DNA of 64,000 nt from Spinacia oleracea. Lineage: Eukaryota > Streptophyta > Magnoliopsida > Caryophyllales > Amaranthaceae. Shown here piece after piece: positions 1 through 61,249 of this stretch. How positions within the stretch are numbered: position 1 is the first letter of the stretch; each line of letters begins with the position of its first letter. The notes beneath the pieces were generated by a model, which was given only the letters and a program-made list of their open reading frames with translations, was not told where the DNA came from and searched no databases. The position numbers and the translations under genes are program-made. Location of the stretch: positions 146,041,861-146,105,860 of the forward strand of contig NC_079492.1 of the NCBI RefSeq assembly GCF_020520425.1, given 5' to 3'.

Positions 1-601
1 ATTCTGTACATTGTGAATGGAATTTGTTGAATTCTTAGGTTTGTCGGTGAAAAATCGTTGGATAATTCGGTGATCACGGGGGTGAATTTTGCGGGCTAGG
101 GTTTTGGTTTTTAGTTGTAATGCAATTAATCAATCCCCAAATTGCGGGGTTCATGTTCCATAGATTGCAGATTTACTTGCTTGAGCACCCTCGTCCATTT
201 TTTATATTAAGAAGGAAATGATCTTTTTATTTAGGCTTCCAACCAAAATTGGGGTTGAGGTCTTTGGGCAATTGATATTTAAGTAGAATTTCAATTTAAC
301 TTTTCTGAAAATTGAAGATGATGCTTATGCTTATTGATGGTCATACATTGTTCTTGGCAGCATGGTTTTGATGGGAAGTTGAAGGGTGGGTTTTCAACAA
401 ATTAGGTTCTGAGCAGAAAAATTTGCGATAAGTCAAGCATTCTATTGTTGTCAAAGATGACGAGCAACATCTAAATCAGCCAACTATTTTAAGCAGGTAA
501 GAAAAACTAATGCTTGCAAGTAACTTGCCTTTGATAAGATGATATTTATATACCCTATGCTACAAGTCAGTTAGTTTTTTAACTTTTGCAAGTGCTTGAA
601 T

Positions 602-847
602 GAGGAAGTCTTGGCCTCAAGTGACTTGTGTCCATATGGACACAAGTGACTTGTAATTGGTACCCGCTAATTTGGTATTGGTACTAAGACTAGTATGGTA
701 TTGGTATACCAATACATTGCTAAGAAGTACCAATACAAATTATTTGTGTTATTGGTACTGACATAAGTTGTGTTGGTACTAAAAATAATTGTATTTGAGT
801 CACTTGTGTCCATATGGACACAAGCCACTTGAGGTTTAGCAATCCTC
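602..847. mobile_element. Small TIR element with palindromic ends, 246 bp
   Basis: The ends are inverted repeats: GAGGAAGTCTTGGCCTCAAG at the left and GAGGATTGCTAAACCTCAAG read from the right. Just inside each end is a near-perfect palindrome, CTTGTGTCCATATGGACACAAG in two parts. A 10-bp direct repeat GTGCTTGAAT flanks it (592-601 and 848-857). Units 2, 3 and 4 have a single TGCTTGA at this point with no insert, so this is a clean insertion. A 9-10 bp duplication fits a Mutator-like origin; the family is inferred. Confidence 0.8.
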
Positions 848-2450
848 GTGCTTGAATACTTTTCTAGTTTTCTGATAAGTTTATAACTTATAAGATTCTA
901 GAATTCAGTAGTCTGAGTCCTTCATTATTGTTTTATCAAGTGCTTTAGTGGGTTGTTACTGAGACGTTTAATGTTCCTTCGAATATCTTTAAACTCTGTG
1001 TTAAATAAAAATCGTCAAACCTCGTTAATAAATCATACACTAACCAAAGTTTTTAAGTTCTCTTTTGTTTCTGGTCTTTCGAAGGACTTTCAATTCCAAC
1101 CAAATCCCTTAATCTCAGCAGAAAGGAAGATAAAGAAAGGGTGACTCCCACCTCATTTCAATATCACTTAGGTACTTAACTTGTCATGTATCACTTAGCT
1201 TGTCAGTTGATAGTTTGTTACCACAGCTTGCGTGTATACATTATTGATCGCTGATGAATAAGAAGGCAATAACGCACAACTAATTAATATACTACGTATA
1301 TAGGAAAGAAAGTTTCTGAAAGTTTCCATTTTAGGCGTCCTGTAAATAAAAATTTGCCAAGCTCATTACCCATTTCTAACAGCATAAGGAGCATATACAT
1401 GCTATTATAAATACCATGCATACCTTTGTTTCCATCCACCAGTTGTGCGTCAAAATATATTTTTCACCTTATTCTTCATCTTCCTGACATAACACCCATT
1501 CTTGATCACACCAGTCTCCTCAACAGATTAGTGCCATAAAGTGGCTCTAGTCTCTAGTTTGAGTCTTGTCCACGTTACTTGGTAAGTTTTCTTTTTATGT
1601 AGTATGGCTCAAGTGCTAATTTTGCATTATTTTGGAAAAATCTTCACATAGATGTTAATTGTTATTTGATCTTTCATCCTTATGTTAACTGTTAAGTAGT
1701 AGTCATGGAGTAATACTCGTTCCTCTGCTTTGGTAGTCTGGATTCCCTAATAAGTAAAATAGAAACATGGCTGTAATTGAGTTAGACTAATTATTCGGGC
1801 CGTCTCCATTGCATGCCTACACTGTTACTAAACTTCATCACAGCATGTGCAAAAACAAACAAAACAAAACGATGCAGTTCTGTTTTTCCACCGTGCATGA
1901 CTCAGTAAACCATCTTAGGTTCACTGGTTGACTTCTTTTATGCTCATTCTGTGCACAAATTCAGGTACCATTATAGGTGAACGAAACCTATAAATATAGG
2001 GTATTTAAAGAATGGGGGCTGATTCTGATCTTTGGTTCGGCTAATAGTTCAAAGTTAGACGATAAAGTAAGGAAGGGCAGTTTTGTTCATATACTCTGTG
2101 GAGAAGTTATATAACTGCATTGAAGTCCTAACTCCTAAATGAATATTTATTCATAATGTAGTAGATTTTACCTACGCATTGTTTTATCCCTTAGAAACCG
2201 ACTTTTATGTTAAATTTAGCTATGTAAAAGAATATCCTTGCTTATCTTTACAGTAACGATAATCAGGTATTATTTAACAAAATTCTCTAGGACATAATTA
2301 ATCTGTAGCTCATCATGCGGACCTTGGCAAGTTTGGCATTGGATTATTCAGTTAGAGACTTGGAGTGTGAATTTTGTTTAACTTTTTTAATTTTAAATTT
2401 AGTACAATATAATTATTTGTAACTTATTAGATTTCAATGTTTTGATACAG

Positions 2451-2953
2451 GTTTATTGTTGTATTAACTCTACTAGCACAACTTGGACTCTCCATAGGAG
2501 ATGGTGGTGATGGCCATAATCCCTTCAAATTTCGTGGAATATATGAATGGATTATCCAAGTTTCACTAATATTAGGTATTATTTTAATAGTGATTCTTAT
2601 ATATTTTATTAGATGTACATTTTTGCAAAAAGTACACCACCCACTATCCAACTCCCTAATCTTCCCACCAGCCCAAGCCACTGAAATTTCTAGCCACCCT
2701 TCTAATACTCTTTCAGAAACCTATGTCTTACGTAGATTACCGGAAGAGATTTATACGTATTCAACTGAACGTTCTAATGATTTTAGTCATATACTTCGTA
2801 TATTGTATGATATGCAATTTTCCTTTTGTTGATAAGGGAGAAGCTGTGCATCCATGTTTTTCACTCTCACTATACTAGGTCATGGTTTCCGAAGCACGAT
2901 TTTCGTTCTACACTGTGCCGTCATGATTATTTTGACGGTTTTGCCGATTACTA
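2451..2953 (+). pseudogene. RING-H2 gene, copy 1, decayed
   Basis: This is the coding exon 2 counterpart of the intact RING genes in units 2 and 4. The acceptor TACAG at 2446-2450 is kept. The N-terminal membrane part is readable, as is the ETYVLRRLPEEIY segment before the RING. Inside the RING the frame is lost after DFSHI, stops follow, and the C-x-H / H-x2-C ligand block is not encoded. There are also small compensating frame changes around 2630-2670. The first coding exon (near 1535-1580) has no ATG where the other copies have one. The host gene is therefore dead in this unit, while its neprosin neighbour is intact. Confidence 0.85.
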
Positions 2954-3549
2954 ATTGGTACAGTGTAAAAAACTATGTTTATATGGTACATGCATAAATG
3001 AATTTTATTTTAAATGAAATATTTTAATAAAAATCATAGTTTTTGACTCTGATAAAAATCATAGTTTTTGACTCTGATAAAAATCATAGCTTGTGTAAAA
3101 CTGTCAATATTTTGTGATTTCAATCCTTGATGTATGAATACCTTGTACGAGTTTACGAAATTGTTAAGTATCGTCACACACCATGGATGCCACAAATGAT
3201 GTGTTATGTGTGCAACACTTCGTGACTTCGATCTCAAAGGCTGCAAAACCTACGTTGCTTTGCTTGTCTGTGTTGGTGTTCCGTTGCTTTTCTGGTTTCA
3301 GGCAAACATTGTCTATCTTTTGTTATGCTATTGGTGTAGCTTTTATGTCCTTTGTAAAACATGTAGGCTGCACCTTTGCTTGGGTTGCAGCTCTATGTTG
3401 TAACCTTCGCGTTAATACATTTGTTTCGTGTATAACAAGAATACTTGTGGTGTTTATGGTATCACGGAAGGAGGAAAAACAAGAATGCAAACGTCAATTA
3501 TCGAGTATTACTGATTGTTGTTTTTATTTCCTCAATTCTGAAAATGTAA

Positions 3550-6418: not shown

Positions 6419-6501
6419 CATTCTACGAGTAATCGAATAAAAAATATATATAAATACGACATTTTCTAAGATGCAAAATACCGATGTGTGATCATAATAA
6501 T

Positions 6502-6536
<35 letters not shown>

Positions 6537-6999: not shown

Positions 7000-9900
7000 C
7001 TAAAATCTATGCCTAATGAGATGTCGACAACGCGCCAAAATGGCCAGCTTATGGGCCGGGAACACATACTGACGAGAGACCTTGAGAGCTGAAAACATCG
7101 CTAATGAACTCAGGAGCCGTCGCAGATCCTGAAGCGCCCAAGTAATAGAAACAGGACCCTGTTGAGTCGAAGTAACCAAGTCCACAAGCAAAGCAGAATC
7201 CGAAAACAGAAGGACTCTAGTAAAACCCCGGTTGATAGCCATTCGAATCCCCCACAAACAAGCCGATAATTCTGCCTGCAAAGCTGAAGCTAAAACGCAG
7301 GCCTGAGCCCCTCCCCCAGTATGAGACAGAGTCCTAGGATCTTGAAGAATCCAACCTAACCCAGCCTCATTAGTTGTGGAATTCCAAGCACCATCAGTAA
7401 TGAGACATGTGACAGAAGAATCCATAACTGACCAAGGAAAACCAGGATGGTCCAACTTTTTTGGACAGAGACTGCGCGCATAATCTGCAGAGGGGGCAGA
7501 CCTTGCACGAACCTCAGAACATCTCACCGTCCAGGACTCTACTAATACTAACAAAACTCCTGGATCCCAGACTGCATTTCGAAACCTGATATTATTGCGG
7601 AGAATCCACACAGACCATAACATAGAAATGAACTTATCTAATAGGACCTGGTGAGACCTGCAGGAAGAACAGTTTGCCATAAACCCCGTGCACCAATATT
7701 CCAAAGAACCTGACGAAGAGGGCAAGAAAAGTCGAAGAGAAGAAGCAGCCCAGAACTGGGTCATCATAGGGCAATCCCAAAATAAATGCTCAAAAGTCTC
7801 CGGATACCGATGGCAAAAGGAACATGCTGGATCTATAGGCATACCCCGAAGTTGCAGAGAGGAAGCTAAAGGAAGAGAATGCTTAAGCAATTTCCAAAAG
7901 AAAACCTTAAGCTTATGCATAATCTTCAACCCCCAGAAATGTTTCCACCAAGAAGCGGAGGGAACTGAGGTAGACGAAGCAACATTATGGTGCTGACTCA
8001 TGAGCATAGCATACGCGGATCTGACCGTGAACTTCCCGTCATAAGAAAACTTCCAGTAGACAAAATCGTCCTTCTGCATAGAAGGACGTTCCAGAGCCAG
8101 AATCTGACTAGCTGTGTTGTCATCAAAAAGTTGATGCACCAGCTCAACCTTCCACGCGTAGGAACGCGGATCTAGTAATGAGGAAACATGAGTCGGCTTA
8201 ACCGACTCAACCACCGACGGCCTGAAACGAACCAAAAGACCTGGAACCCAAGCATCCCTAAGAATGCGAATACAATTCCCTGCCCCGGGTTTCCAAGCAA
8301 TCCCTTGGTCTAAGACTTGGAAACCTTCAGCAAGGCTCCTAAACCCCCAAGAAGGACGAGAACCTGAAGCCCGAGAACCAGCAAGACCAAGATTCGGGTA
8401 GCGGACCTTAAAAAGACGAGACATAAGAAGTTGCGGGTTGTGAACAATGCGCCAAGCATTCTTAGCTAGAAGAGCCTGATTAAAACCTTGAATACCTCTA
8501 ATTCCCAGACCCCCCATTCCTTTCGGAAGATGTAAAATGGATGCCGGAAGCATTGCTATCCCCCTGGAATCTGCAGAAGAGCGCCACCAGAACTGAAGAC
8601 ACAACTGGTCAATCCGATCACAAATTGACTTCGGGATCTTGAAAACAGAGAGAACGTGTGTAATGGAGGCTATGAGCACGTAATTGATAACAACCAGTTT
8701 TGCCGCTGAAGAAAGGCGCAAAGATGAAAAATTAGCAATTCGGCGTGCTATGCAATCCACAAGGCCATAAAATGCTTCACACTTAGACCGACCCATGTCC
8801 ACTGGAACCCCAAGATAAGGCCCTAAAGAGGTACGCTGACCCAACCGCAAGGAGGTAGCCAGGAAGTCACGATAGTCCTGCGGAGTATTAGGACTGAATT
8901 TGACAAAGGATTTTTGGTAGTTAATCACCTGACCAGAAATAGAGCTGAACTTAGACAGTAAGGCCAGGACCTGGTCACAAATTTCAGGAGACAGCCGGAA
9001 AAACAGGAGAGAATCATCAGCAAAAAATAAGTGTGAGATCGAAGGAGCGCCTCGAGATATAGAAATCCCTTCAATCAAGTGCATCCGTTCCGCACGATGC
9101 AAGATAGAAGAGAACACTTCCATGCACAAAACAAATAAATAAGGAGAAAGGGGATCTCCTTGGCGCAAACCGCACTTTGGATGAAAAGCCCGAGTAGGCT
9201 CACCATTTACAAGGACCTGGTAAGACACCGTAGTGACGCATTGCCGAATGATGTTGACCCAGTATGGAGGGAACCCAAACGCTTGTAAGGCCTGAAACAA
9301 GAAATCCCAACGCACTCTATCATAAGCCTTATTCATATCAAGTTTGACCACTGCATAGAATTTACTCCTTGTTGAAGCCCGATTAACGAAAGAAATCAAC
9401 TCATGAGCAATCAGACATTCATCTGACATTAGACGCTCTGGAACAAAAGCATTCTGGTTGCCCGAAATCAGAGAAGGAAGCACAGAGCGCATACGATGGG
9501 TCAGGCACTTCGAAATGCACTTGTAAATGACATTACACAGTCCAATAGGACGAAACTGGGACACCAACGTAGGATGTTGTGTTTTAGGGAGGAGCACCAA
9601 GAAAGTGCGGTTCCAATCCCTGAGCATAAACCCATGAGCAAAGAAAAATTGAACAGCATTAATGACATGAGAACCCACAATTCCCCAGTGGGTTTTGAAA
9701 AACGATGCTGAAAAACCATCCGGACCTGGAGATTTGTTGTCAGCGATATTAAACATGGCATAACGAATCTCTGCAGGGGAGAAAGGAACCATCAAGAACT
9801 CTCTGTTTTCCTGGGACAAAACTGGAAGCTGGAGCTGCTCCCAGTCATACGGGAGAGGATCGGAAACTGGCTTATTGACCTCATATAAGTCCGAGTAAAA

Positions 9901-11055: not shown

Positions 11056-11081
11056 ACCCCTACAGTTTTAGGAACACACCT

Positions 11082-12386: not shown

Positions 12387-12403
12387 ACCTTCAGACGGGG
12401 CTA

Positions 12404-12418
12404 ATGTACTCCGTATTT
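12404..12418. repeat. Right target-site duplication of the LINE
   Basis: Exact second copy of ATGTACTCCGTATTT, at the 5' side of the LINE. Confidence 0.9.
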
Positions 12419-12427
12419 GTTACATTA

Positions 12428-13890: not shown

Positions 13891-14039
13891 TAAAAAAAAA
13901 TGTTTCTATAAGATTTAAACCCGCAAACTCTAATTTCAACCTTAAATCATTATCCAATTTAGCTACAACTTTTTAAAAGATGAATTGAAAAATTAAACTC
14001 AAAATGGAGTGTCCCTCTCATAAACGCTTCTTATGACTG

Positions 14040-14731
14040 ATGAAACTGATGACGACGCACTTTCCTAATGTCGCAAAAAACGCTTACCAAAACACCAGTT
14101 TGAGGTTGCAGTTGAAGAGTAACGAATTTACGATGCTCAATCTTGCTGCTACGGAGGCGGCGTGGCTGATGACGCAGCTGTGGTGGTGGTCGGGTCAATG
14201 GTTCCATCGACTTTCAACGAAGGTATAATTAGTTTGGTTCTTTTGGGTAGTTTTAACATCCAATTAGACGATTCTATAAATGTTGAATAGTATTTATTGA
14301 TTTCCTAGGTTTGTCGGTGAAATATTGTTGGATAATTTGGTGAACATGGGGTGAATTTTGCAGCTAGGGTTTTAATTTTTAGTCGTAATGCAATTAATCA
14401 ATCCCCAAATTGGGGTTTTCATGGTTCCATAAATTACAGATGTACTTCCCTGAGCACCTTTTCCAATTTTCTAAATAATGATTAAATATTGGAAAATCAA
14501 TTTGGGGTTAATAATTGCTTGGCTTCCACCCATTATTTGGGGTTGAGGTCTTTTTGCAATTGAATTTTAGTAGAATATCAATTTAACTTTTCTAAAAGTT
14601 GAAGATGGTGCTTATTCTTTTGTTGTTAGTAATAGACCCTGATTTAAGTTGCAACTGGTGATATTGATGGTCATTGTTCTTGGCAGCATGGGTTTGATAG
14701 GAAGTCGAAGGGCGGATTTTCAACAAATTAG
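14040..14731 (+). CDS. Possible 75-codon small ORF spliced from two leader exons, unit 2
   Basis: Exon 14040-14222 (MKLMTTHFPNVAKN...) ends CGAAG before a GTATAA donor. The next exon, 14687-14823, follows a TTGGCAG acceptor and ends before GTAAG. Joined in phase they read ...WFHRLSTK-HGFDRKSKGGFSTN and stop. Unit 3 gives the same join with 77 codons. The product is not recognised: it is short, has no signal peptide or membrane span, and is moderately basic. The two exons lie upstream of the RING gene's first coding exon on the same strand. They could be its 5' leader with an upstream ORF, or a separate small gene. Confidence 0.4.
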
Positions 14732-15567
14732 GTTATGAACGGACAAATTTGCGGTAACTCAAGCATTCTAATGTTGTCGCAGATGACGAGGAAGATCTAT
14801 ATTAGGCAACTGTTTTAATAAAGGTAAGAAAAACTAATGCTTGCAAGTAACTTGCATTTGATAGGGCAATATTTATATGCCTTATGCTACAAGCCTACAA
14901 GTCAGTCGGTTTTTTAACTGTTGTTAGTGCTTGATTACTTCTTTTGATAAGTTTATTAGGTTCTAAATTCTAGAATGCAGTAGTTTGAGACCTTCATTGT
15001 TGTTTTCACAAGTGTTAAAGTGGGTTGTTAGTGTTTAAGTTAGCAAGACTATTCATGTTTCGTCAAATCATCATTAAATTCTACGCAAAGAAATATCGTC
15101 CAAAATAAAAATCCTTTATCTCAGCAGAAAGGAAGGGTAAATGACTACCACCTCAGTTGAATATCACTTACGCACTTAGCTTGTCAGTTAATTACCACAG
15201 ACTGCATGTATGCATTATAGATCACTGATGAATATGAAGGCATTAAGGCAAAACTAACTAATAAAGTATACAGGAAAGAAGGTTGCTTAAAATTTCCATT
15301 TTACGCATCCTGTAAGTTAAAATTTGCCAACATTTATCCATCTGTAACAGCATAATGAGCATATAGTCATATACATAGTACATGCTATAAAATTATAAAT
15401 ACCATGCATACCTTTGTTTCCATTCACCAGTTGTGTATTAAAAAATATTTTTCATCTTCCAGAATCCAACATCTTCATAATTATACACTTGTAGTGACAT
15501 AACGCCCATTCTTGATCACATCAGCTTCCTCAACATAAGTATCATAAAACTGCCTATAATATCTCTC

Positions 15568-17973
15568 ATGAATCTTGCCCACGTTATTTCGTAAGTTTTC
15601 TTTTTATGCCTGAAGTTTTAATTTTGCATTAATTTGGAAAAATCTTTACATAGACGATGTTAATTGTTTATTTGATGGGCACTGGGCACATACATTGTTA
15701 GTTGCTAACTTAATTTTATCTTCCACCCTTGTGTGACTGTGTCAACTGTTCAGTAGTAGGTATTGAGTAGCACTCGTTCCTCTGCTTTGGTAGCTTGGTT
15801 TCCTAAACCAGTAAAATGGCATAATTGCTGTAATTGAGTTAAACTTACAATTCAGGCAGTCTCTATTGCATGTATAAGTGATCAGTTTCAATACAGCATA
15901 TGAACAAACAAACAAAACAAAATGATGCAGTTCTGCTTTTCCACTTGCATGATTCAGCATATCGTGTTATAGGTTCCTATTAACTTCGTTCATACACATT
16001 CTGTGCACAAATTTCAGATGCCATTATATGCTTGTTTAATATGAACTGTTCAGGCACCTGGCACCAACACTTAGGATATTTATAACAGTATAGTTTGTGA
16101 GTGTGTTGAAATATATATGGGACATTAGTGTTAAGAGCATAAGCATTCTTTGTGTGCTTGTAAATAATTGATCTTTTCAAATTCAATCTGATCATTTAGT
16201 GTCAACATATTGATTCTTGAGTGTAAGTTTCCAACACTTCCATCACTACACACTCTGTCTGTATAGACTGAAGATTTAGAATCTGAAACCTTTTTGAAAG
16301 AATTGTATCCCTTGGAAATAAATCATCCTATATTCAAATATGGTTTTCGTTTTGAATAAAAGAATACAGGAGAATTGTGATGTCAGATCTTGCTTTTCAA
16401 TCTTTTTGCTATATTTTTGTTCAAATTTGTACGTATTGCTTGACTTTGGCTTAATTGCTTCAAGGCCCAATCTCGGTATATTTTGCTGATGCAGTTGCTG
16501 CTAATAAATTTAATGGATGATACAGTTTTGTTTCTTGTAAAACCCGATTGTATTACTTGGAACACTAATTTGGATGAAAATCAGCTGTTTTGGAAGTTCT
16601 TAGATTTGTTTTTTCATGTTAGATGACGTACACCTTTTGATAATGTTCCCTATTTTAACTTGCCTTCGGTTGGTGGTAACTGGTAATCGTGTTCTCACCC
16701 TATTAATTCAAAGAGTTTATCAGTTTGATGACTTTGCTAGAGTTATGCCCTGCTACAGAGCTGATGAATGATGTCAACAAACTTGCTCCTTGACTTTGCT
16801 AGAATTCAGGAAGAGGGTCTGAATTTGTGTCTAGGACTTCTTTCTAGTGATCTACTGAACTCAGAAAATAAAAATTTCTGGACCTATGTTTTCTACGTTC
16901 TATATACGATTATGATTGGATTCTTCCGATCTTAGTTTACAATATTGAATTTAGGTTGCAACAATTTATGCCTGCTTAACTTAGCTTTGAAACGTTTGAA
17001 AGCCCTATAAATTATCCACGGGTGAACTGAAACTTAATAAATATGGGGTGTTTATGGGAAAATGGGGACTGGTTGTCTAACAAATTCTGATATTTGGTTT
17101 GGCTAATAGTTCGAAGTTAGACGATAAGTAAGCAACACTGAAGTCTGAAGTGAATTATATGCATAAATTAGATGTTATCTATATGCATTGCACAACATTT
17201 GGTGTTTCATCCCTTAGAAACCAACTGACATTTATTTTAAATTAAGTGATGTAAATGATTATCCTAGCCTCTTTTTACAGTAACATTATCCAGTAATATT
17301 TAACAAAAATCTACATGGCTTAATCTATAGCTTATCATTAGCTTATCATGTTATACCTTGACAATTTGCCATTGAATTATTTAGTTGGAGACTTGGAGTG
17401 TCAATTTTGATATTTTATATTTCATACAGGTTTACTGTTGTTGCATCTATTTTACTGGTACAAGTTGGAATCTCTGTAGGAGATGATGGTGATAATAAAT
17501 CTGTCCACGAACTTTCTCATGCAGAAGAATGGATCATCCAAGCTTCACTTGTATTAGGTGTTATCTTAATAGTAGTAATTATTTATTTTATTAGGCGCTT
17601 TTTCAAGAAAAGGCAACATAGGACACCAGCCAGTATCCAACTCCCTAATCTTCCCCCGTCCCAGGTGCCTGAAACTTCTACCAACTTCTCTAATACTCTT
17701 CCGGAAACTTATGTCTTACGTAGATTACCGGAAGAGATTTACAGACGTTTTCCGGTAGATACTTATTCAACCGAACGTTGTAATGACTTCAGTCATATAG
17801 ATTGTATGATTTGTAATTTTTCTTTTGTTGATGGGGAGGAGCTGTGCATCCTTCCTGTTTGCCGCCATGTTTTTCACTCTCACTGTACTAGCTCATGGTT
17901 TTTAAACCATGATTGTCGTTGTACTGTGTGCCATGTTGATTATTTTGACGGTTTTAGTAATGACTTGGTGTGA
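15568..17973 (+). CDS. RING-H2 finger membrane protein, copy 2 (188 aa)
   Basis: Two coding exons: 15568-15590 (MNLAHVIS, donor GTAAG) and 17430-17973 (acceptor ATACAG). The 567 nt give 188 residues. The N terminus is a hydrophobic signal/anchor (to about residue 25). One clear transmembrane span follows (IIQASLVLGVILIVVIIYFI) with a basic stop-transfer RRFFKKRQ. Then comes a Pro-rich linker, ETYVLRRLPEEIYRRFPV, and a C-terminal RING-H2: C-x2-C-x15-C-x-H-x2-H-x2-C-x11-C-x2-C with the conserved Trp in SSWFL. This is the layout of ATL-type E3 ubiquitin ligases, which place substrate-marking RING domains on the cytosolic face of endomembranes. The ATL GLD motif is not obvious. The ATG used by copies 3 and 4 is CTG here, so translation starts 18 nt later. 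Confidence 0.8.
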
Positions 17974-30112: not shown

Positions 30113-30184
30113 TACGGAGTACTGTACTCCGTATATCACAACTAAAGGAGGAAAGTAACACGTGTCCTCCCGTAAAGGCTCCTG

Positions 30185-30954
30185 ATGAGTAATGAACGGA
30201 CGATGACGCACTTTCCCAACGTCGCAAAAAACGCTTACCAAAACACCAGCTTGAGGTTGCAGTTGATGAGTAACGAATTTACGATGCTCAATCTTGCTGC
30301 TGCGGAGGCGGCGCGGCTGATAACGCAGCTGTGGTTGTGGTCGGGTCAATGGTTCCATCGATTTTCAACGAAGGTATAATTATTTTGGGTTTTTGGGTAG
30401 TAGTTTTAACACCCAATTAGACGATTCTGTAAACATTGAATTGAATTTGTTGATTTCCTAGGTTTTTCGGTGAAAAATTGTTGGATAATTTGGTGAACAT
30501 GGGGTGAAATTTTCGGCTAGGGTTTTAAATTAGAGTCGTAATGCAATTAATCAATCCCCAAATTGGGGTTTTCATGTTCCATAAATTACCGATGTGAGCA
30601 CCCTCATCCAATTTTTAAAATAATGGTCAAGAAGGGAATTATCTTTTTTATGTTGGATTCCATTTATATTCAGGGTTGAGGTTGTAGTCTTGTAGACACC
30701 TGCGCAATTTGTATTCATATTCTTTTGCTTCTTAAATTTATTTTTGGTCAAGAAAATTTATGGTTTACAGAGGTCTTTGTGCAATTGATATTTTAGTATA
30801 ATTTCAATTTAACTCTTCTAAAAGTTGAGGATGGATGCTTATATGTTGTTAGTAATAGACCTTGATTTAAGTTGCAACCGGTGATATTGATGGTCATTGT
30901 TCTTGGCAGCATGGTTTTGATGGGAAGTTGAAGGACGGATTTTCAACAAATTAG
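30185..30954 (+). CDS. Possible 77-codon small ORF spliced from two leader exons, unit 3
   Basis: Exon 30185-30373 (MSNERTMTHFPNVAKN...) ends CGAAG|GTATAA. The second exon starts at 30910 after TTGGCAG. In phase the join reads ...WFHRFSTK-HGFDGKLKDGFSTN and stops at 30954; the exon itself continues to 31046 before GTAAG. The same structure is kept in unit 2. In unit 4 the first exon has diverged and gained a stop. Function unknown: either an upstream ORF of the RING transcript or a decaying separate gene. Confidence 0.4.
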
Positions 30955-31830
30955 TTTCTGAGGCAGACAAATTTCAGTAATTCAAGCATTCCATTGTTGT
31001 CGAAGATGATGAGGAATATCTAAATCAGGCAACTGTTTTAAGAAAGGTAAGAAAAACTAATGCTTGCAAGTAACTTGCATTTGATAAGACAATATCATAT
31101 ACCCTATGCTACAAGTCACTCGGTTTCTTAACTGTTGTTAGTGCTTGATTACTTTTTTTGATAATTTTATAAGGTTCGAGATTCTATAATGCAGTAGTTT
31201 GAGTCCTTCATTTTTGTTTTAGCAAGTGCTAAAGTGGGTTGTTAAGTGTTGTTAGTAAGACGATTGATGTTTCGTCAAATCATCAATGAATTGTACGCAA
31301 ACAAGAATCGTCAAACCTCATTAATATATCATAAACAACCAGAAGTATTAAATTTTCTTTTGTTTTTGGTATTTTAAAAGCCTACTTCCACTTCCTATTT
31401 CAACCAAAATCCTTAATCTCAGCAGAAATGACTACCACCTCAGTTGAATATCACTTAGCTTGTTGTTTGTTGGTTACCACAAACTGCATATATGCATTAT
31501 AACTGGTGAATATGAAGGCATTAAGGCAAAACTAACTGATATAAAGTGTACAGGAAAGAAAGTTGCTGAAAATTGCCATTTTAGGCATCCTGTAAGTTAA
31601 AATTTGCCAACACTTATCCATCTTTAACAGCACAATGAGTATATAGTCATATACGTAGACACATGCTATAAAATTATAAATACCGTGCATACCTTTGTTT
31701 CCATTCACCAGTTGTGCATTAAAAAATATTTTTCATCTTCCAAAATCCAACATCTTCATAATTACACACTTGTAGTGACATAACGCCCATTCTTGAGCAC
31801 ATCAACTTCCTCAACATAAGTATCATAAAA

Positions 31831-34800
31831 ATGCCTATAGTCTCTCTCATGAGTCTTGCCCACATTATTTCGTAAGTTTTTCTTTTATGCCTCAGGTTTT
31901 AATTTTCAATTAATTTGGAAAAATCTTCACATAGACGTTGTTAATTGTTTATTTGATGGGCACATACATGGTTAGTTGCTAATTTATCTTCCACCCTTGT
32001 GTCAACTGTTCAGTAGTAGGTATTGAGTAGCAACTCGTTCCTCTGCTTTGGTAGTTTGGTTTCCTTAATCTGTAAAATGGAATAATTTCTGTAATTGAGT
32101 TAAACTAATAATTCAGGAAGTCTCCATTGCATGTATAAGTGATCTGTTTCAATAAAGCATATGAAAAAATAAACTAAACAAAATGTTGCAGTTCTGCTTT
32201 TCCACTTGCATGATTCAATAGATCATGTTATAGGTTCATTATTGACTTTGTTCATACACATTCTGTGCACAAATTTAAGGTGCCATTATATGCTTGTTTA
32301 AGTTAGCTTGAATGTATATGAACTGTTTGGGGCACCTGGCACCAACACTTAATTTAGGATATTTATAACAGTATAATTTGTGAGTGTGTTGAAATATATA
32401 TGGGACTGGTTCGTAATGTAGTATGTGTTTATATTTTTATAACGGTTTTGAGGACATTAGTGTTACGAGCACATGTGCATTCTTTGTGTGCTTGTAAATA
32501 ATTGATCTTTTCAAATTCAATCTGATCATTTCGTTCCATAAGTTTTGTTTTTTACTTATACAAAATGACTTAGGCTTTCCATTTGGCGTCAACGTATTAC
32601 GTAGACTCAAGATTAAACCTTTATGAAAAAACTTGTGTCCGTAGGAAATAATCCTCTATTCAAAAGAATACAGGAGATTTGTTATGTGTTGTGATATTGC
32701 TTTTGAATCTTCTTGCTTGATTTTTTGTTCAAATTTGTACGAATTGCTTGACTTTGGCTTAATTGTTTCAAAGGCCATACTCGGTATATTTTTCTGTAGC
32801 CTGCTAAGTAATTGTATGCATGCTACGATTTTGTTTCTTGCAAAACCCTATTGTATTACTTGGAACACTAATTTGGATGAAAATCAGCTGTTGTGGAAGT
32901 TCTAGAATTAATTTCTCATGTTAGATGACTTAGATCCCTTTAAAGAGTTGAAGTTGACTTGAAGCAATTAGATGACTTAGATACCTTTGATAATGTTCCC
33001 TAATTTGACTTGAATTCGGTTGATGTAAGGGTGTTCTTACCCTATGCATTTAAGGGGTTTAATAGTGTGTTGACTTTGCTAGAGTTCTGCCCTGCTTCGG
33101 AGCTGATGAATGATGTCAATTAATTTGCTTCTTAAACTCTGTAGTTGTAGCAAAAGAAGTTTCAGGGTGCTCATTACTCATTAGGTTCGAAACGATCATG
33201 ATCGAAATTCTGGTAGGGGGTTCGATTTGAATTTGTGTATTGGACTTCTTTCTAGTGATCTACCGAACTCAGAAAATAAAAAGTTCTGGACCTATGTTTT
33301 CTACATTCTATATACGATTATGTTTAGTTTCTTCCGATCTCAGTTTACAATATTGAATTTAGGTTGCAATAATTTATGCTTGCTTAAGTTAGCTGTAAAA
33401 CGTTTGAAAGCCCTATAAATTATCCACGGGTGAACTGAAACTTAATAATATAGGATGTTTTGGTTATGTTGGAATTGAATTCCTTGAGTATTATTGATTA
33501 TGGGAAAGTCCTTATATACAAATATTTAGTAACGTAATATGCGTATGCTAAGGCTAAGAATCAGGAACTAAATATGTACATGATGACTAAATCAATGCTA
33601 ATTATATACGTAATCTATCATACGCCCGCAATCGAAGCGGGAGGTTTGCGAACGCTTAGACTGTCCCGAAAATCATTAAATAGTACGCGCGGAAGCCCTT
33701 TTGTAAAAATATCGGCAATCTGATATCGGGATGGAACATGAAGAACTCGGACCTCACCACGGGCAACCTTTTCCCGGACAAAGTGAATGTCCATCTCAAT
33801 GTGTTTAGTGCGCTGATGCTGAACTGGATTACCTGATAAGTATATCGCACTTACATTGTCACAATAAACAAGCGTCGCTTTAGGGACCGGGTTATGGAGT
33901 TCCAAAAGAAGATTCCGGATCCAGCAAGACTCAGAGACCACATTAGCCACACCTCGGTACTCGGCTTCGGCACTGGAACGGGAGAGGGTTGGCTGTCGTT
34001 TCGAAGACCATGATATTAAGTTGTCACCAAGGAAAACACAATAACCGGAGGTGGATCGCCTAGTGTCCGGACAACCACCCCAATCGGCATCTGTATACGA
34101 AATCAAGCTGCCAACACTAGACTTATAGAGATGTAAACCAAAATCAATAGATCCCTGGACATAGCGCAAAATGCGCTTGAGAGCAGTCATATGCTCAATA
34201 CGAGGGTCATGCATATGAAGGCACACCTGTTGAACTGCATAAGATATATCTGGCCGAGTGAATGTGAGATACTGGAGAGCACCAGCGAGTTGGCGGTATT
34301 TAGTCGGATCATCAAATGGAGCATCATTCGAAGCACTAAGCTTCGGTTTGGTGTCGACAGGTGTGGGGGACGGACTACAATGTGACATACCTGCCCGTTC
34401 CAGAATTTCTTTAGCATACTGTTTTTGAGATAAGAATAGCCCATTTGCATCACGAGTAACAGCAATGCCCAAGAAATAACTAAGATGACCAAGATCCTTC
34501 ATAGCAAATTCAGCACCCAAAAGTGCCATAATAGACTTACGGAGAGAATCAGAAGAAGCCGTAAGAATGATGTCATCAACATAAAGAAGAATATAAGCAG
34601 TGTCTGTACCTCGGCGGTATATGAATAAAGAATGATCAACGGTGCTGTGGGTGAATCCGATGGATGCCACATAATCTGCAAACCGTTGGTACCAAGCCCT
34701 GGGTGCTTACGTAATCTATCAGGTTAATAGTTCTGTTATTGGTCGTTTTGTACGACGTGAGGTCGACGCTGGAACAAGTCATCGCAAGTCAGTCCGCCCT

Positions 34801-53381: not shown

Positions 53382-55931
53382 TAGTAATTAACAATTGATG
53401 ATGACTAATTAATATCTAATAAATTTGAAAAGTTTGTAAATGCAAATCTATATATCATAGATTCATATTGGTTTAACAACGACGAGACTAACATATTGAA
53501 CAACGAAACGAGATAACAAGATCAATTGTTAATGAATTAAGTCGATTTAGTTAAAACAATATGGATTTTGTGATTAGTTCGTTGGTTATAAACTTATAAC
53601 GTACAAAGTATTGTATTAGATCAATTTAGTTTAGTAATTAATTAATCAGTTGAATATGAGTCAATAAAAAGTGCAAGACTAGTAAAATAATATAAATTAA
53701 TAAATTTTATAACATTGGCCAACAATTAAGGAATAACATTCTACATTTGATTACTCTAATAAGGTAATAACTGATGAATCGATGATCATAACTAGTTTAA
53801 ACTAAAATTGTACAAAACTATAATTAATAAAGATATAGATCTTTCTTATCTCGACATTAATTTATAAAAACGATCTAGTATATAGTACGATTTTTAATCT
53901 GGATCAAATAAAACTTGTTACGGTTGTAAATAGTTCATGGTAATAAAAGGGTTATAACAGTTTAATTTGGACTAAACATATTGTAAATGGGTTACGGGTA
54001 GTAAACGGTTTGGGTTGAAATAGTTCGGGTTGTAAACGGTACGTGTTGAAATAGTTCGGGTTGTAGATGGTCTGGGTTGAAACAGTTTGGGTTGTTGACG
54101 GTCCGGATTAAACGGGTTTTTCCGGGGTTGAAACGGTTCAGATCGAAATAAATCGGGTCAATAACGGTTATCGGGTTTAGTCGGTTCGGGTAGAAACAGT
54201 TTGGGTTTCTGCATGACAGTTTGTTATCGGGTTTTGAATCTTAATCGAGTTAATATTTTTTAGTCGGTTCGGGTTCGGATTGCATTTAATCGGATCGGAA
54301 TGAATTTCGGGTCCAACTCACGGGTTATTAACAATCCGGGTTCTAAACATGCGGATAACCAAGTGGTTCAATGAGTTGGGTTGAGAATTGACAGCAGTAG
54401 CGATGAGTGATGAACTGACGATGACACACTTTCCCATTGTCGCAATAAACGCTTACCAAAACACCAGCGTGAATACATTTCGAAAAACTCTTGAAGACAT
54501 GATCAATCTTGTTGCTGTGGAGGCGGCGCCTCTGATCCCGCGGCGGCTGTAGCGGTGGTCCGGTCAATGGTTCCATCTTATTTCAACAAAGGTATTTTGG
54601 CCTTTTTGTGGTAGTTTTAACACCCAATTAGACGATTCTATAAATGTTGAATTGAATTTGTTGATTTCCTAGGTCTCTGGTGAAAAATTGTTGCATAATT
54701 TGGTGAACATGGGGTGAATTTTGCGGCTAGGGTTTTAATTTTTAGTCGTAATGCAATTAATCAATTCCCAAATTGGGGTTTTCTTGTTCCATAGATTGCA
54801 GATGTACTTGCTTGAGCACCCTCGTCCAATTTATAAATAATGATTAAGAAGAAAATTATCTTTTTATTTAGGCTTCCAACGATTATTTGGGATTGAGGTC
54901 TTTGAGCAATTGACATTTGGTAGAATTTCAATTGAACTTTTCTAAAAGTTAAAGATCATGCTTATTCTTTTGTTGTTAGTCATAGACCCTGATTTAAGTT
55001 GCAATTGGTGATATTAATTGATGGTCATTGTTCTTGGCAGCATGGGTTTCATGGGAAGTTAAGGAAGATTTTCAACAGATTAGGTTCTGAAACAGACAAA
55101 TTTGCGGTAACTCAAGCATTCTAATGTTGTCGAAGATGACGAGGAAGATCTATATTAGGCAACTGTTTTAAGAAAGGTAAGAAAAACTAATGCTTACAAG
55201 TCAGTCGGTTTTTAACTGTTGTTAGTGCTTGATTACTTTTTTGATAAGTTTTTAAGGTTCTAGATTCTAGATTGCAGTAGTTTGAGTCCTTCATTGTTGT
55301 TTTCGCAAGTGCTAGTGGGTTGTTAGTGTTTAAGTTAGTAAGACGATTAAAGTTTCGTCAAACAATCAATAAATTGTACGCAAACAAAAATCGTCAAACC
55401 TCATTAATAAATAAATTACAGACATAAGTTTTATATTTTCTCTTTGTTTTTGGTATTTTAAAAGCTTACTTCCACTTCCTATTTCAACCAAATTCCTTAA
55501 TCTCAGCAGAAAGGAAGGGTAAATGACTACCACCTCAGTTGAATATCACTTGTGCACTTAGGTTGTTGTTTGTTGGTACCAACTACATGTATGCATTATA
55601 GATCACTGATGAATATGAAGGCATTAAGGCAAAACTAACTGATATAAAGTGTATAGGAAAGAAAGTGCTGAAAATTTCCATTTTAGGCATCCTGTAAGTT
55701 AAAATTTGCCGACACTTATCCATCTTTAACAGCATAATGAGCATATAGTCATATACGTAGTACATGCTATAATATTATAAATACCGTGCATACCTTTGTT
55801 TCCATTCACCAGTTGTGCATTAAAAAATATTTTTCATCTTCCAGAATCCAACATCTTCATAATTACACACTTGTAGTGATATAACGCCCATTCTTGATCA
55901 CATCAGCTTCCTCAACATAAGTATCATAAAA

Positions 55932-58211
55932 ATGCCTATAGTCTCTCTCACGAGTCTTGCCCACGTTAGTTCGTAAGTTTTCGTTTTATGCCTCAGGTTT
56001 TAGTTTTCAATTAATTTGGAAAAATCTCCACATAGACGTTAATTGTTTATTTGGGCACATACATTGTTAGTTGCTAATTTAATTTTTATCTTCTACCCTT
56101 GTGTCAACTGTTCAGTACTAGGTATTTAGTTGCAACTCGTTCCTCTGCTTTGGTAGTTTGGTTTCCTTGATCAGTAAAATGGAATAATTGTTGTAATTGA
56201 GTTAAACTAACAATTCAGGCAGTCTCCTTTGCATCATCGCATGTATAAGTGATCATGTGATCATTTTCAATGCAACATATGAAAAAACAAACAAAACAAA
56301 ATGTTGCAGTTCTGCTTTTCCGCTTGCATGATTCAGTAGATCGTGTTAAAGGTTCACTGTTGACTTCGTTCATAGACATTATGTGCACAAATTTCAGGTA
56401 CCATTATATTCTTGTTTAAGTTAGCTTGAATGTATATGAACTGTTTGGGGCACCTGGCACCAACACTTAATTTAGGAATTTTTAACAGTAATTTGTGAGT
56501 GTGTTGAAATAATATATGGGACTGGTTCGTATGTAGTATGTGTTTATATTTTTATAACGGGTTTGAGGACATTAGTGTTAAGAGCATATGTGCATTCTTT
56601 GTGTGCTTGCTTGTAATAATTGATCTTTCCAAATTAATTCCAGAAGTTTTGTTTTTTACTTATACAAAATGACTTAGGCTTTCCATTTTGTGTCAAACAT
56701 ATTGATTCTTGAGTGTAAGTATCCAACACTTCCATCACTACACACTCTGTATAGAGTCAAGATTTAGAATCTGAAACCTTATTGAAAAAATTGTGTCCCT
56801 TGGAAATAAATCTATTACTTTATACTAAAACAGACACCAGGAATGACACATGTCACTTCCTGGTGCAATTTTTTCCCGCCAAAAGCCTATTTCCTAAAAT
56901 ATATCTATTTTATTTATTTATTTAGTTTTTATCAGTTTTTATAAATGGATTATGCATGGAAACAAAATATTGGCTTACTAAATATGACAATAATAAATAC
57001 CACATAATAACTTGCTCAAAATTATATTGAAATATTTTTGTCAAATCGGTATATCAATAATAGAAAATATATTTAGTCGATATTTGATCAAATTAGCATA
57101 TGATGCACATAAAATATGTAATACGTAATAGGACAAAAGTTTCCTATTAGATGATTAAATGAATATGTTCAAGATTTATTAATTATGCATTGGCTTTAGG
57201 AGGAGAAATATTTTTTTAAAACAAATATGGTCAAACAATAATTTTAAAATATCCGTGCATGCACGGGATATAATCTAGTCATTCTCTATTCAAATGTGGA
57301 TTTCGTTTTAATAAAAGAATACAGGAGAATTGTTATGTGGTCAGATTTGCTTTTCAATCTTCTTGGTTGATTATTGTTACTATTTTTACGAATTGCTTGA
57401 CTTTTGCTTAATTGCTTCAAGGCCCAAACTCGGTATATTTTGCTGTTGCGGTTGCTGCTAATTAATTGTATGCAGGCTACAGTTTTGTTTCTTGCAAAAC
57501 CCGATTGTATTACTTGGAACACTAATTTGGATGAAAATCAGCTGTTTTGGAAGGTATTAGATTTGTTTTTTCATGTTAGATGACATAGACCTTTTGATAC
57601 CTTGACAATATGGCATTGAATAATTATGTTGGAGAGTTGGAGTGTGAATTTTGATATTTTAATTTTGATACAGGTTTACTGTTGCATCAATTCTACTGGC
57701 ACAACTTGGAATCTGTGTAGGAGATTATGGTGATAATTTTAATTGGGGCGGAATTTTACATGGACATGAATGGGTTATTGAAATTTCACTAATATTAGGT
57801 ATGTTTTTAATAATTGTTCTTATATTTCTTATTCGGCGTTTTTTCAAGAAAACGCAACAAAGCACACCACCTACTATCCAACTCCCCAATCTTCCCCCCG
57901 CCCAAGCCTCTGAAAATTTTACCAACCCCTCTAATGAAACCTATGTATTACGTAGATTACCGGAAGATATTTATAGGCGTTTTCCGGTAGATACATATTC
58001 AACTAAACGTTGTAATGACTTCAGTCATGAAGATTGTATGATATGTAATTTTCCTTTTGTTGATGGAGAGGAGCTTTGTATACTTCCTGTTTGCCGCCAT
58101 GTATTTCACTCTCACTGTACTAGTTCATGGTTTTTAAGCCATGATTGTCGTTGTACAGTGTGCCGTCATGATTATTTTGACGGTTTTAATAATGATCAAT
58201 TAGTAGTGTAA
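55932..58211 (+). CDS. RING-H2 finger membrane protein, copy 4 (192 aa)
   Basis: Coding exons 55932-55972 (MPIVSLTSLAHVSS, donor GTAAG) and 57674-58211 (acceptor TACAG), 579 nt in phase. N-terminal signal/anchor, then one transmembrane span (VIEISLILGMFLIIVLIFLI), a basic RRFFKK, a Pro-rich linker, ETYVLRRLPEDIYRRFPV and a full RING-H2: C-x2-C, C-x-H, H-x2-C, C-x2-C, with Trp in SSWFL. Predicted ATL-like E3 ubiquitin ligase anchored in an endomembrane. The internal Met of copies 2 and 3 is Thr here (ACG), so the upstream ATG must serve. The intron carries a Helitron. Its stop lies 176 bp from the neprosin D stop, tail to tail. Confidence 0.82.
56811..57278 (+). mobile_element. Non-autonomous Helitron, 468 bp, in the RING copy 4 intron
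   Basis: Starts TCTATTACTTTATACTA and ends TATAATCTAG. A palindromic hairpin CCGTGCATGCACGG (57253-57266) stands 8 bp before the CTAG end. It is inserted between A (56810) and T (57279). Unit 2 keeps the empty site GGAAATAAATCAT near 16315. Confidence 0.93.
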
Positions 58212-58386
58212 AAAACTATGTATGCTACATTATACATTTGTGTTCATACATTGGTTTCATTCATTGTGTGGTACTGGGTAAGAACTGGTAATAAGTTTCG
58301 AGAATTACTGGTAAATCTGGAAATAAACTTGTATTATCGAGTATTACTGTTGGTTGTTTTTATTTCCTCAATTCTGGAAATGTAAT

Positions 58387-60547
58387 TTACATTGTAGTAC
58401 CACCGAAAAAGATTGTTCTCCCTAAATTCTCATAATGTTCTCTATCATAGACTCCATAATGCCAGTTATCGGCATACTTTACAGTTTGTTTAGGGCTAAT
58501 CTGTTGATGATTTGCATCTAAAACCCCAAATCCAGAACAAAATGCAGATAATGTAGCATCTTCAACAGGATAATAGCCGTTTCCCATGGCAGGAAGAGGC
58601 TGAGCAGGGGGGCTATATGCCTCTCCACCAACTGCAATATAAGTCGCGCCATTTGCCAAACCGGTGAATATCTCTCGTGGCCAATAACCAACAATGATGT
58701 CTGGTGTGACTGGGTTGCGTAGTAGTAGCCACCAATGCCCTGTTTTAGGATCCTTTTCAACATATTATGGGTATTTGTTTATGTTAGAGAAACGTTATTA
58801 GGTTTACAAACTCGTAATTATGAAGATTTGAAAATATGAAAATGTACCTGGTAAACAAAGGGCGACACAAACCATATTTTCGTACTTCCTCTTATCGTGG
58901 TTCCTTTCGTGGCAATATCAATTGGAACGCGTTTATTGACGTTAACGAATCCAGGGCATAACATGTTGTAGCAATGTGATTGACCAGCCTAAAAAATGAA
59001 GATCAAAAATTCAAAAAAGGCAAAGAAAACGGAAAATATGAAATATCGGATTATAAACTCACATTTAAGTATTGAAAATGATGTGTGCGATTATCTTTAT
59101 TTAATGCTGGATTAACCTACAAGTTTGAAAGGAAATGAACGTTAGTGCAAATTACGATTATGACAAAAACTTCAATCAAAAGGACAGAAACAGTCCAAAA
59201 GATCGAGGAACATATAATTAATTTTGACATATGCAAGAATCAAATTAACAATCTGCTTAATGTTGAGGATATTGTTTGATATAGTGTTCAAAGCATTGCA
59301 TGCGTTAAACAATTCGTATTAAAAAGAGAAAGGTGCGGAGTAACTTACAGTCCAACCAAATTGTATCCGATCATTACCATTTTGAATGATAATTTCTGCC
59401 GATGAATATTGTTGCGGGGTGACATGTGGATTATAAATACTAAAATCACATTTTACGCCATAGTATTTCACTTTGCTTGGGTCGGAATTTGTTTGAACAA
59501 TTGCAAACTGTGACAACAATAAACCAAACCTTCTTATTAGGAACAACGTATATTAGGAACCTCTGAAATGCTCAAATTCTTTAGAACAATGGAATAAAAG
59601 GTTTACATGAGTTCCTGGTTGTTGTTGATTAGCGTTAGACTTCAATCTAGAAACATAATCTTTTGTAAATTGCGATATTTGGATAAATTCATCTTTACTC
59701 CATCGTCGGATTGGAATAGTTCCCTCGGGACATCCTCCATCTTCTAATTGCATATTCTCAACCAACACCTCATTTCTAGCTTCTTTCCATTTTGGTACAA
59801 AACTTGGTCTCATCTAAATCCCGACAAAATATTAGAACATGTACTTCGTCTTTTTTTTTTTTTTTTTTTGAAACTACACCAAATTGAATATAACAAAAAA
59901 AAAAAAAAAAGTTAAAGTTGAAAAATCATAAACCTGTGGATGGGAAGAATGGTTTTTCATTAGAGGATGATCAAATGCAGGTTGTTTATAGAAGTCGACA
60001 CAATCGTACAAATCTCCGTATTTTGTCTGTGAATTAAACTCTTGATTATTATATATTACAAGCATTATATTGCTTGATGGAGAAAATTAACACTATAAGA
60101 ATTTGTATCTTTAACGACAACCTAATTACGACGGGTCAAAAATCCCGTCGCAAAAGCCTTTTGCGACGGGGCTAACAACCAAACAATGACGGGAATAACC
60201 GTCGCAAATGTCTTTTACGACGGGTTTACGACGGATTTACGACGGGATTTCTATTAACGACGGCCCCCTTTTATGACGGGTTCGCGACAGGAAATCCCAT
60301 CGTTAATGAACGATTATTGGCCTTTCGCGACGGGATTTCCCGTCGTTAATAGTACTATTTCTTGTAGTGTAAAGATAGAGGAAAAAAGAAAAAGAACCTT
60401 GATTGCCTTAACACTTGGCTTTCTGAGGAGTTTAAATTGCTTGATCCATTGAAGTTCTTGTTGTTTGGAAAATTGAATGCCTTCTATTCCGTCACATACC
60501 AGAAACAAGCATAAGATCACAAAGTATGCTAGAGTCTTGATACCCAT
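58387..60547 (-). CDS. Neprosin-family secreted protein, copy D (7 exons, 389 aa)
   Basis: Exons: 60547-60398, 60026-59934, 59813-59607, 59507-59349, 59116-59063, 58988-58848, 58752-58387; all GT-AG, phase 0. Start MGIKTLAYFVILCLFLVCDG with a signal peptide of about 24 residues. Exon 2 holds [19 protein letters not shown] (activation peptide). The neprosin domain holds GNDRIQFGWT, NKDNRTHHFQYL, CYNMLCPGF, GHWW, GYWPREIFTGL and GGEAYSPP; the last Glu may be one of the two catalytic acids, not verified. A CACTA miniature lies in intron 1. Overall close to copy C. Secreted glutamic peptidase role is inferred from the family. Confidence 0.87.
60091..60369. mobile_element. CACTA miniature element in neprosin D intron 1, 279 bp
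   Basis: Begins CACTATAAGAATTTG and ends TTCTTGTAGTG, with a 3-bp TAA duplication (60088-60090, 60370-60372). Interior rich in GACGGG and CGTCG words. Opposite in orientation to the related copy in neprosin B. Confidence 0.9.
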
Positions 60548-61249
60548 CACTCTACAAGTAATCGAATATGCAATTATATATAAGTACCACATTTTCTCAT
60601 AAAAGCTAAAATAATTTTATTAAACCATCCATTACAATTTTAATTCCATCAGTTATAAATTTATTGTATTTCTTACCTGTTCTTGAGTATGCAATTTCTG
60701 AAGGTAACTAGCAAAAGTATCCTTTTTTTTGTTTGTTTAATTTACAGTTTTACATGAGATGGCTAGGAAATGTGATATATAACGTAATCCTGGTTTTGGT
60801 ATAAAATCAGTAACAATTAATGCACATGCATTAAAATAAGGAGGGGCTTGGATGCATGTTTTACATGTTAAACAATAGACGACGATAATAAATGAGAGAA
60901 TCAGGAGTGATTTTATTAAATGTGAAAGACAAATTCTTATTTGAAGATGGTGTATAATAAATATTGTCAGAGTAAAAGTTAACTAAGACTTTTTTTTTTG
61001 AGTTGAATTGAATTGAACTGAACTTAGCTTAAATGAACCAAACCGAATTGATGAAATAAATAATAAATGATAGATGGTAAGTAATAAATAAGTAAAAAGT
61101 AATAATTAATAAATAATGAATAATGAATGATAAATAATAAATGATAAGTAATAATTATAGTAATTAATAATAAATAATACGAAGTAGTAAATAATAAGTT
61201 ATTCTCCGTATATAATAATAAATTATCATAAATAATAATAATATAATAA

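Follow-up and report, generated by a model that had tools for sequence, protein, structure and literature searches.

Tandemly duplicated RING-H2 and neprosin gene pairs in spinach, with neprosins that are probably no longer peptidases

Why should a membrane RING-H2 gene and a gene of the neprosin family recur as a tail-to-tail pair along one chromosome, and what are the neprosins of such pairs kept for? The question is raised by a 64,000-nt stretch of Spinacia oleracea contig NC_079492.1 (C6 in the following; C6:146041861-146105860), here called the window, in which four such pairs are found, each consisting of a transmembrane (TM)/RING-H2 gene on the plus strand and a neprosin-family gene on the minus strand. 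Judging from the sequence, the neprosins are probably secreted pseudo-peptidases that sit in one block with the RING gene, a block that was tandemly duplicated and shuffled by gene conversion. Block duplication as such would be ordinary; the point of interest would be that non-enzymes are maintained.

The repeated units share 73-92% DNA identity in many aligned stretches that sum to kilobases, far above chance, and the homology spans genes, introns and flanks in unchanged order, which identifies the locus as a tandem gene block. With another 44 kb of sequence before the window and 20 kb after it included, the array extends on both sides, by three more units (Ua, Ub and Uc) and an orphan exon, so that it covers ~100 kb of C6 and comprises at least seven units. 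Beyond units 1 to 4, which are given gene by gene below, the array contains the following.

C6:146016128-146020084: unit Ua, RING and neprosin both whole
C6:146026461-146030029: unit Ub, neprosin whole, RING broken into two tandem pieces
C6:146036572-146036417: orphan neprosin exon 1, adjoined by a partial upstream block at C6:146035597-146035802
C6:146110511-146111059: RING of unit Uc, open
Window 18759-18673, minus strand: orphan neprosin last-exon remnant (tblastn E 5.7e-4), absent from the preliminary description of the window

In the downstream sequence, just the last ~50 codons of the Uc neprosin are left. The gap from stop codon to stop codon is 528 bp in unit 3 and 175 bp in unit 4; in unit 2, the RING and the neprosin are ~5.4 kb apart, with an open UDP-glycosyltransferase (UGT)-type gene between them.

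The neprosin genes of the window (N1 to N4) have the following structures, with positions counted from the first letter of the window.

6418-3550, minus strand: N1 (unit 1), 7 exons, 390 aa; exons 6418-6269, 6050-5958, 4915-4706, 4609-4451, 4273-4220, 4135-3995, 3915-3550
26591-23408, minus strand: N2 (unit 2), 7 exons, 389 aa; exons 26591-26442, 26356-26264, 26153-25947, 25850-25692, 24555-24502, 24424-24284, 23773-23408
44482-42282, minus strand: N3 (unit 3), 7 exons, 389 aa; exons 44482-44333, 44065-43973, 43869-43663, 43559-43401, 43123-43070, 42990-42850, 42647-42282
60547-58387, minus strand: N4 (unit 4), 7 exons, 389 aa; exons 60547-60398, 60026-59934, 59813-59607, 59507-59349, 59116-59063, 58988-58848, 58752-58387

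The exon lengths are common to all four (150, 93, 207 or 210, 159, 54, 141 and 366 nt), the introns are GT-AG, there are no internal stops, and the frames run for 389-390 codons; complete gene models were also obtained for the neprosins of Ua and Ub. Self-BLAST and these models bear out the layout given in the preliminary description, namely, four convergent pairs, full-length neprosins with seven clean exons in all four, and 3' gaps of 176-530 bp in units 3 and 4. N4 combines the Pfam domains Neprosin (PF03080, E 1.5e-51, 175.3 bits with a cut-off of 22) and Neprosin_AP (PF14365, E 2.3e-24, 86.6 bits with a cut-off of 39.2) in one protein and thus belongs to the neprosin family; the Pfam scan was run on N4 alone, and N1-N3 are placed as its full-length homologues. 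Inverted copies of a sequence resembling a miniature inverted-repeat transposable element, 84.7% identical to each other, lie at 24050-24267 (N2 intron 6) and 60091-60325 (N4 intron 1).

Are these neprosins peptidases? By phmmer, N4 matches the neprosin of Nepenthes (PDB 9qr8, E 6e-38; 7zu8, E 1.8e-37), and the residue numbering taken from it agrees with 18 of the 19 residues named in PMC9343461, the mismatch being position 206, which is Phe in the PDB sequence and Tyr in the text of that paper. Neprosin is a G3 glutamic peptidase with the dyad Glu188/Glu297 and the oxyanion residues Gln173 and Trp175. The four window copies uniformly have Gln at position 188, Glu at 173 and Ile at 175; Tyr136 is changed to Phe and Thr186 to Arg, Tyr214 is missing, and His134 aligns with a Thr that has a His next to it. 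Glu297, Cys219 and Cys224 are kept. The Q188/E173/I175 motif recurs in the Ua and Ub neprosins, that is, in six of the six whole copies of the array. In Nepenthes neprosin, the mutants E188Q and E297Q are inactive, Q173A and W175A are totally inactive, and H134A, Y136A and Y214A have ~80% lower activity (PMC9343461).

As a control, we compared bacterial homologues. At three loci, with 36-43% identity to neprosin, all eight residues examined are kept, and the window copies, with 31-33%, are nearly as distant from neprosin as these. Two of the three loci are Novosphingobium plasmids that are identical at every position shown; three of the four plasmid matches were used, the fourth coming from the same strain as the third, and the scan of genome contigs confirmed one of 26 candidate stretches.

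Within the spinach genome (894 Mb searched), the 20 best-ranked last-exon matches outside the array were tallied irrespective of whether the genes are intact, and at least 10 further places with PF03080 lie outside this tally. Glu188 is kept in 13 of these 20 loci, six of which also keep Gln173 and Trp175; in the remaining seven, the residue is V, Q, Q, A, A, K and K, the two K loci being near-copies of each other. The active-site profile for these loci was built from 13 seed sequences, several of them from the same loci that were then scored. Taking the 20 loci together with the six array copies, the complete set of Gln173, Trp175 and Glu188 is present in 6 of 26 genes and Glu188 is absent in 13, so the loss of Glu188 is not unique to the array. 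Three of the out-of-array loci (C6:145.16, C1:103.97 and C1:104.02) have the AGQSHCFN motif of the array and, by this motif rather than by a tree, are taken as the probable nearest relatives of its neprosins. Because these three carry Q, K and K at position 188, the loss of Glu188 is probably older than the array.

The neprosins evolve under purifying selection, and their ratio of non-synonymous to synonymous substitution rates (dN/dS, omega) is not near 1, a value that would have spoken against the preliminary description. By the Nei-Gojobori method (NG86), dN/dS is 0.32-0.45 in the six window pairs, and the one-ratio maximum likelihood estimate is 0.40 (best of three trees; against omega 1, twice the log-likelihood difference is ~47, p ~6e-12). 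Omega is below 1 with p <=0.005 in 15 of 15 pairs (the six window pairs and nine involving the Ua and Ub copies), and omega 1 is also rejected on each of the terminal branches N2, N3 and N4. One codon of N1 exon 3 was left out of the counts. The most constrained block is exon 4, which encodes positions 136-188 (omega 0.11, p 1.6e-7), followed by exon 7 (0.36), exon 3 (0.42) and exons 1-2 (0.44). Within exon 6, non-synonymous changes exceed synonymous ones per site in four of the six pairs (N1-N3, N1-N4, N2-N3 and N3-N4), on small numbers.

The partner gene is represented in the window by four copies of its second exon.

2451-~2956, plus strand: R1 exon 2 (unit 1), dead, several frameshifting indels and stops
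17430-17973, plus strand: R2 exon 2 (unit 2), open
41186-41753, plus strand: R3 exon 2 (unit 3), open, damaged, an internal duplication replacing the H-x2-H-x2-C zinc-ligand stretch
57674-58211, plus strand: R4 exon 2 (unit 4), open, with hydrophobic N-end, TM helix, RLP motif and RING-H2

All four exon-2 frames lack an initial Met, so the gene needs a 5' exon, for which units 2-4 offer a candidate with the donor TTC/GTAAGT (the slash marking the splice site).

~15568-15590, plus strand: candidate RING 5' exon, unit 2
~31831-31871, plus strand: candidate RING 5' exon, unit 3
~55932-55972, plus strand: candidate RING 5' exon, unit 4

Another stretch, MKISCFG, was rejected as exon 1, a GT donor being present in unit 4 only among the three units that carry it. 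When joined to its candidate exon 1, R4 matches zf-RING_2 (E 1.4e-7), and its exon 2, taken by itself, matches 28 distinct PDB RING-domain sequences at E <=0.01. R2 and R4 have all eight RING-H2 ligands, with 11 residues between ligands 6 and 7, where 10 is the canonical number. An N-terminal TM helix is indicated in R2, R3 and R4 by a hydropathy peak of 3.1-3.5 at exon 2 residues 36-54; the structure model of exon 2 is poor (mean predicted local distance difference test, pLDDT, 42) and has a helix at residues 27-59. In R2 and R4, the sequence RLPE(E/D)IYRRFPVDTY takes the place of a GLD motif. At the junction of intron and exon 2, the Uc RING carries a 265-bp insertion (C6:146110241-146110505); its splicing may survive because the 8 bp duplicated by the insertion contain the splice acceptor.

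Selection acts on the RING gene as well, although very unevenly along its length. For the two whole RINGs of the window, R2 and R4, omega is 0.30 (p 4.5e-6), with 0.088 in the half containing the RLP motif and the RING and 0.69 in the N-terminal half. For the four RINGs whose exon 2 is whole (Ua, units 2 and 4, and Uc), omega is 0.35, the RLP-RING half being fixed (0.086, p 4e-13) and the lumenal/TM N-terminal half unconstrained (0.97). R1 was excluded throughout, the duplicated stretch of R3 was masked, and R3 was absent from the four-copy fit.

The neprosins of different units appear, from their sequence, to be mosaics of each other, produced by gene conversion or unequal exchange between units. 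Among 1,924 ungapped columns of the four window genes (intron 1 left out), 112 sites divide the copies two against two, and which division is favoured shifts from block to block: copies 1 and 3 against 2 and 4 in exon 7, 1 and 4 against 2 and 3 from exon 6 to intron 4, 1 and 2 against 3 and 4 from exon 4 to intron 2, and 1 and 3 against 2 and 4 in exon 1. These sites form 44 runs, compared with 73.7 +/- 4.9 after shuffling, and none of 20,000 shuffles gave so few. At the 0.05 level, Sawyer-type pairwise sums are significant for every one of the six pairs, and the longest shared run is so for four of them.

Elsewhere in the genome, the two genes are at best loosely linked. A search with the RING gave at least 70 matches at E <=1e-3, the family being large. 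The best of these are those of the array; the next two are on C1, at 103.826 Mb (58% identity), where the TM-RING frame is open and carries the related motif YVLRKLPEKIYRR, and at 103.797 Mb (60% identity), a shorter piece. Two of the three related neprosins are on C1 too, at 103.966 and 104.018 Mb; all these C1 genes are on the plus strand, with the RINGs and neprosins 139-221 kb apart. No R4-like RING (E <=0.01) was found in 14-kb pieces around the three related neprosins, including that at C6:145.16 Mb. Thus, among the loci compared in this genome, the close tail-to-tail arrangement is confined to the array, and the paralogs give a mixed answer on whether the pair is unlinked in close relatives, the refuting outcome named in the preliminary description: around the C6:145.16 neprosin, the 14-kb piece shows no RING of this kind, and the C1 genes are loosely near each other. 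We read this as an old, loose neighbourhood whose genes came to lie close together a single time, on C6, before the block was amplified.

Combining these observations, we suggest the following scenario. Tandem duplication would have turned a block of two neighbouring genes into an array of seven or more units, with the pairing passed on in each duplication, and sequence would then have been exchanged between units. Whole RINGs and neprosins would be kept by purifying selection, and units would occasionally lose one partner or the other. The neprosins, which retain both Pfam domains, including the zymogen-type prodomain, along with Cys219/Cys224 and Glu297, most likely are peptidases no longer; the retained domains lead us to guess at a role in binding without catalysis, in the cell wall or the secretory space. 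The RING might be an independent membrane ubiquitin ligase, with its catalytic domain fixed and its lumenal/TM half free to change.

Several results weigh against this scenario. The inactivity is read from residues, and Gln188 with Glu297 is not strict proof of it because G1 eqolisins use a Gln/Glu dyad. A fourth bacterial locus, with 28% identity to neprosin over 159 residues, keeps Glu188, Glu297, Tyr136 and Thr186 and does not keep Gln173, Trp175 and Tyr214 (the match starts at Tyr136, with His134 outside it); change at 173, 175 and 214 is thus compatible with an intact dyad. On the N1 branch, omega is 0.68 and 1 is not rejected (p 0.28; against 0.35 for the rest, p 0.068); together with the dead RING of unit 1, this is a hint of joint decay, no more. 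Exons 5-6 (omega 0.77, p 0.39) do not differ from 1 and are the sole block without support. Fitting one tree despite recombination is a weakness, although the per-block fits are otherwise below 1 with support, and the longest shared run is not significant for units 1 and 3 and units 1 and 4. The alternative most directly concerned, that the neprosins still are peptidases, with a Gln188/Glu297 dyad as in G1 eqolisins and a changed specificity, draws on the fixation of both residues in all four window copies, on the location of Gln188 in the most constrained exon, and on the correspondence of neprosin Glu188 and Glu297 to Gln107 and Glu190 of the eqolisin SCP-B (PMC9343461). We consider it unlikely, given that each enzyme loses all activity when it carries the other's residue at this position (E188Q in neprosin, Q107E in SCP-B; PMC9343461), that the oxyanion positions 173 and 175 and the supporting positions 136, 186 and 214 are changed or missing, and that two related genes have Lys at 188. 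Similarly doubtful is a broader version, in which a clade of neprosin-fold proteins secreted by plants swapped Glu/Glu for a fixed, eqolisin-like Gln188/Glu297 pair and would work with it, either as a peptidase of new specificity or as a substrate-trapping pseudo-peptidase kept by selection, co-amplified with a membrane ubiquitin ligase. That the copies are functionless leftovers of neutral duplication, as the several broken copies and the retroelement sequence in the array might suggest, is highly improbable: the constraint found in every neprosin pair, and in the RING domain too, contradicts it for the set as a whole, and single copies may be dead, as the N1 branch indicates.

The preliminary description had proposed that selection maintains the neprosins and that the RINGs are free to decay or dose-insensitive. 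Its first half holds, and within the window the count does lean that way, with four of four neprosins whole compared with two of four RINGs (p 0.43); the RINGs are, as described there, whole twice, damaged once and dead once, where whole refers to exon 2. However, the contrast between a selected and an unselected partner fails because the RING domain itself is strongly constrained, more so than the neprosins taken whole (0.086 vs 0.40). Neither is the decay one-sided. Unit Uc combines an open RING with a neprosin stub, and over all seven units, whole copies number six of seven for the neprosin and four of seven for RING exon 2, which is not a significant difference (Fisher p 0.56); given that gene conversion can keep copies alive, such per-unit counts are not independent. 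Hence, we regard this explanation as quite improbable. Some functional coupling of the two genes is possible, and the short gaps in units 3 and 4 make overlap of convergent transcripts (cis-natural antisense) possible. A true module, in which turnover of the neprosin or of its receptor depends on the RING, or one gene is silenced by convergent transcription of the other, would fit the tail-to-tail pair in each unit, the short distances (175-528 bp) between the 3' ends of units 3 and 4, and the related out-of-array copies of both genes within one 221-kb stretch of C1. Against it, either partner can be lost, the gap of unit 2 is 5.4 kb and holds another gene, the C1 genes are at least 139 kb apart on the same strand, and the C6:145.16 neprosin has no RING in its 14-kb piece, so we give the module little credence. 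Passive inheritance of the pairing by block duplication, with selection acting on both partners, appears the better account.

Each unit of the window also has a part upstream of the RING exon.

1..1975, plus strand: upstream part of unit 1, no long open reading frame (ORF); contains block B, which recurs in every unit
14009..16642, plus strand: upstream part of unit 2, no long ORF
30162..33463, plus strand: upstream part of unit 3, with inserted retroelement sequence between this part and the RING exon
54402..56703, plus strand: upstream part of unit 4, no long ORF

Block B is unusually alike among units 2-4 (K 0.075-0.087), and its identity to unit 2 is 71.6-74.7% in Ua, unit 1 and Ub, so that Ua, with its whole RING, is about as diverged as the other two. 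As a candidate functional element, it was rejected on the grounds that its indels are not multiples of three and that Ua has diverged like units 1 and Ub; Rfam gave no matches over the window at the gathering score, and block B peptides had no significant match in Pfam. We read the closeness of block B as recent shared history, not constraint. A minus-strand ORF in the upstream block was dropped as well, its best Pfam matches having E 0.17 and 0.21 and the PDB giving none at E <=10.

Other sequences also lie in the array. A 945-bp repeat resembling a long terminal repeat (LTR) occurs twice, at 34734-35678 and 39926-40871, 99.9% identical and ~4.2 kb apart, with a 48-bp minisatellite and no ORF of its own longer than 120 aa in between; a copia-type pol fragment (33618-34706, minus strand) adjoins. 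The LTR-like pair is probably a recent insertion in unit 3, between the upstream part and the RING exon. Units 1 and 2 are separated by a long interspersed nuclear element (LINE)-type retroelement (7000-12419; RVT_1, zf-RVT, RVT_3 and endonuclease in 7003-11067). The UGT-type gene of unit 2 (19215-20561, PF00201) is intronless and open, encoding 448 aa. Germin-like (cupin) genes follow unit 3 (50581-51216) and unit 4 (~63164-64000, cut by the window end); because the two are 92.6% identical over 849 aligned bases, the duplication that made units 3 and 4 may have included the germin gene.

How do these genes compare with known systems? We do not file the array RING under the ATL family because RLP(E)(E/D)IYRRFPVDTY stands in for GLD and the 11 residues between ligands 6 and 7 are one more than the canonical 10; its frame, moreover, needs an upstream exon. 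It resembles the ATL RING-H2 ligases (PMC3161093) in having a TM helix, a short motif and a RING-H2 in which P-x-C-x-H is present and a Trp follows the sixth ligand at a spacing of three residues, and GLD is absent from one ATL group (PMC3161093). On the neprosin side, tandem expansion is already known: group C of the Arabidopsis LOTR1/HOLO family, with the same two Pfam domains as the array copies, includes eight homologs at consecutive loci on chromosome 4 (PMC8794472), whereas section 9 of that paper mentions no RING partner for the LOTR1 family. Capture of neprosin gene fragments by a CACTA element has been described in Chenopodium vulvaria (PMC8978399). Arabidopsis has LOTR1 and 42 other neprosin-domain genes, described as putative proteases (PMC8794472), and among the matches listed for the open-access neprosin/DUF239 literature, none reported neprosin pseudoenzymes in its title or abstract opening. 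If the loss of Glu188 holds more widely, many genes annotated as neprosin would not encode proteases, and the question would become that of a conserved non-catalytic role outside the cell, for which the array could serve as a natural test set: its separate copies allow selection on a dead active site to be measured one by one. Another of the closest known counterparts is Nepenthes neprosin itself (PDB 7zu8, 7zva and 9qr8): the window neprosins share with it the PF14365 prodomain together with PF03080, a hydrophobic N-terminus, Glu297 and Cys219/Cys224, at 31-33% identity, and depart from it at Glu188, Gln173, Trp175, Tyr136, Thr186 and Tyr214 in every copy of the window.

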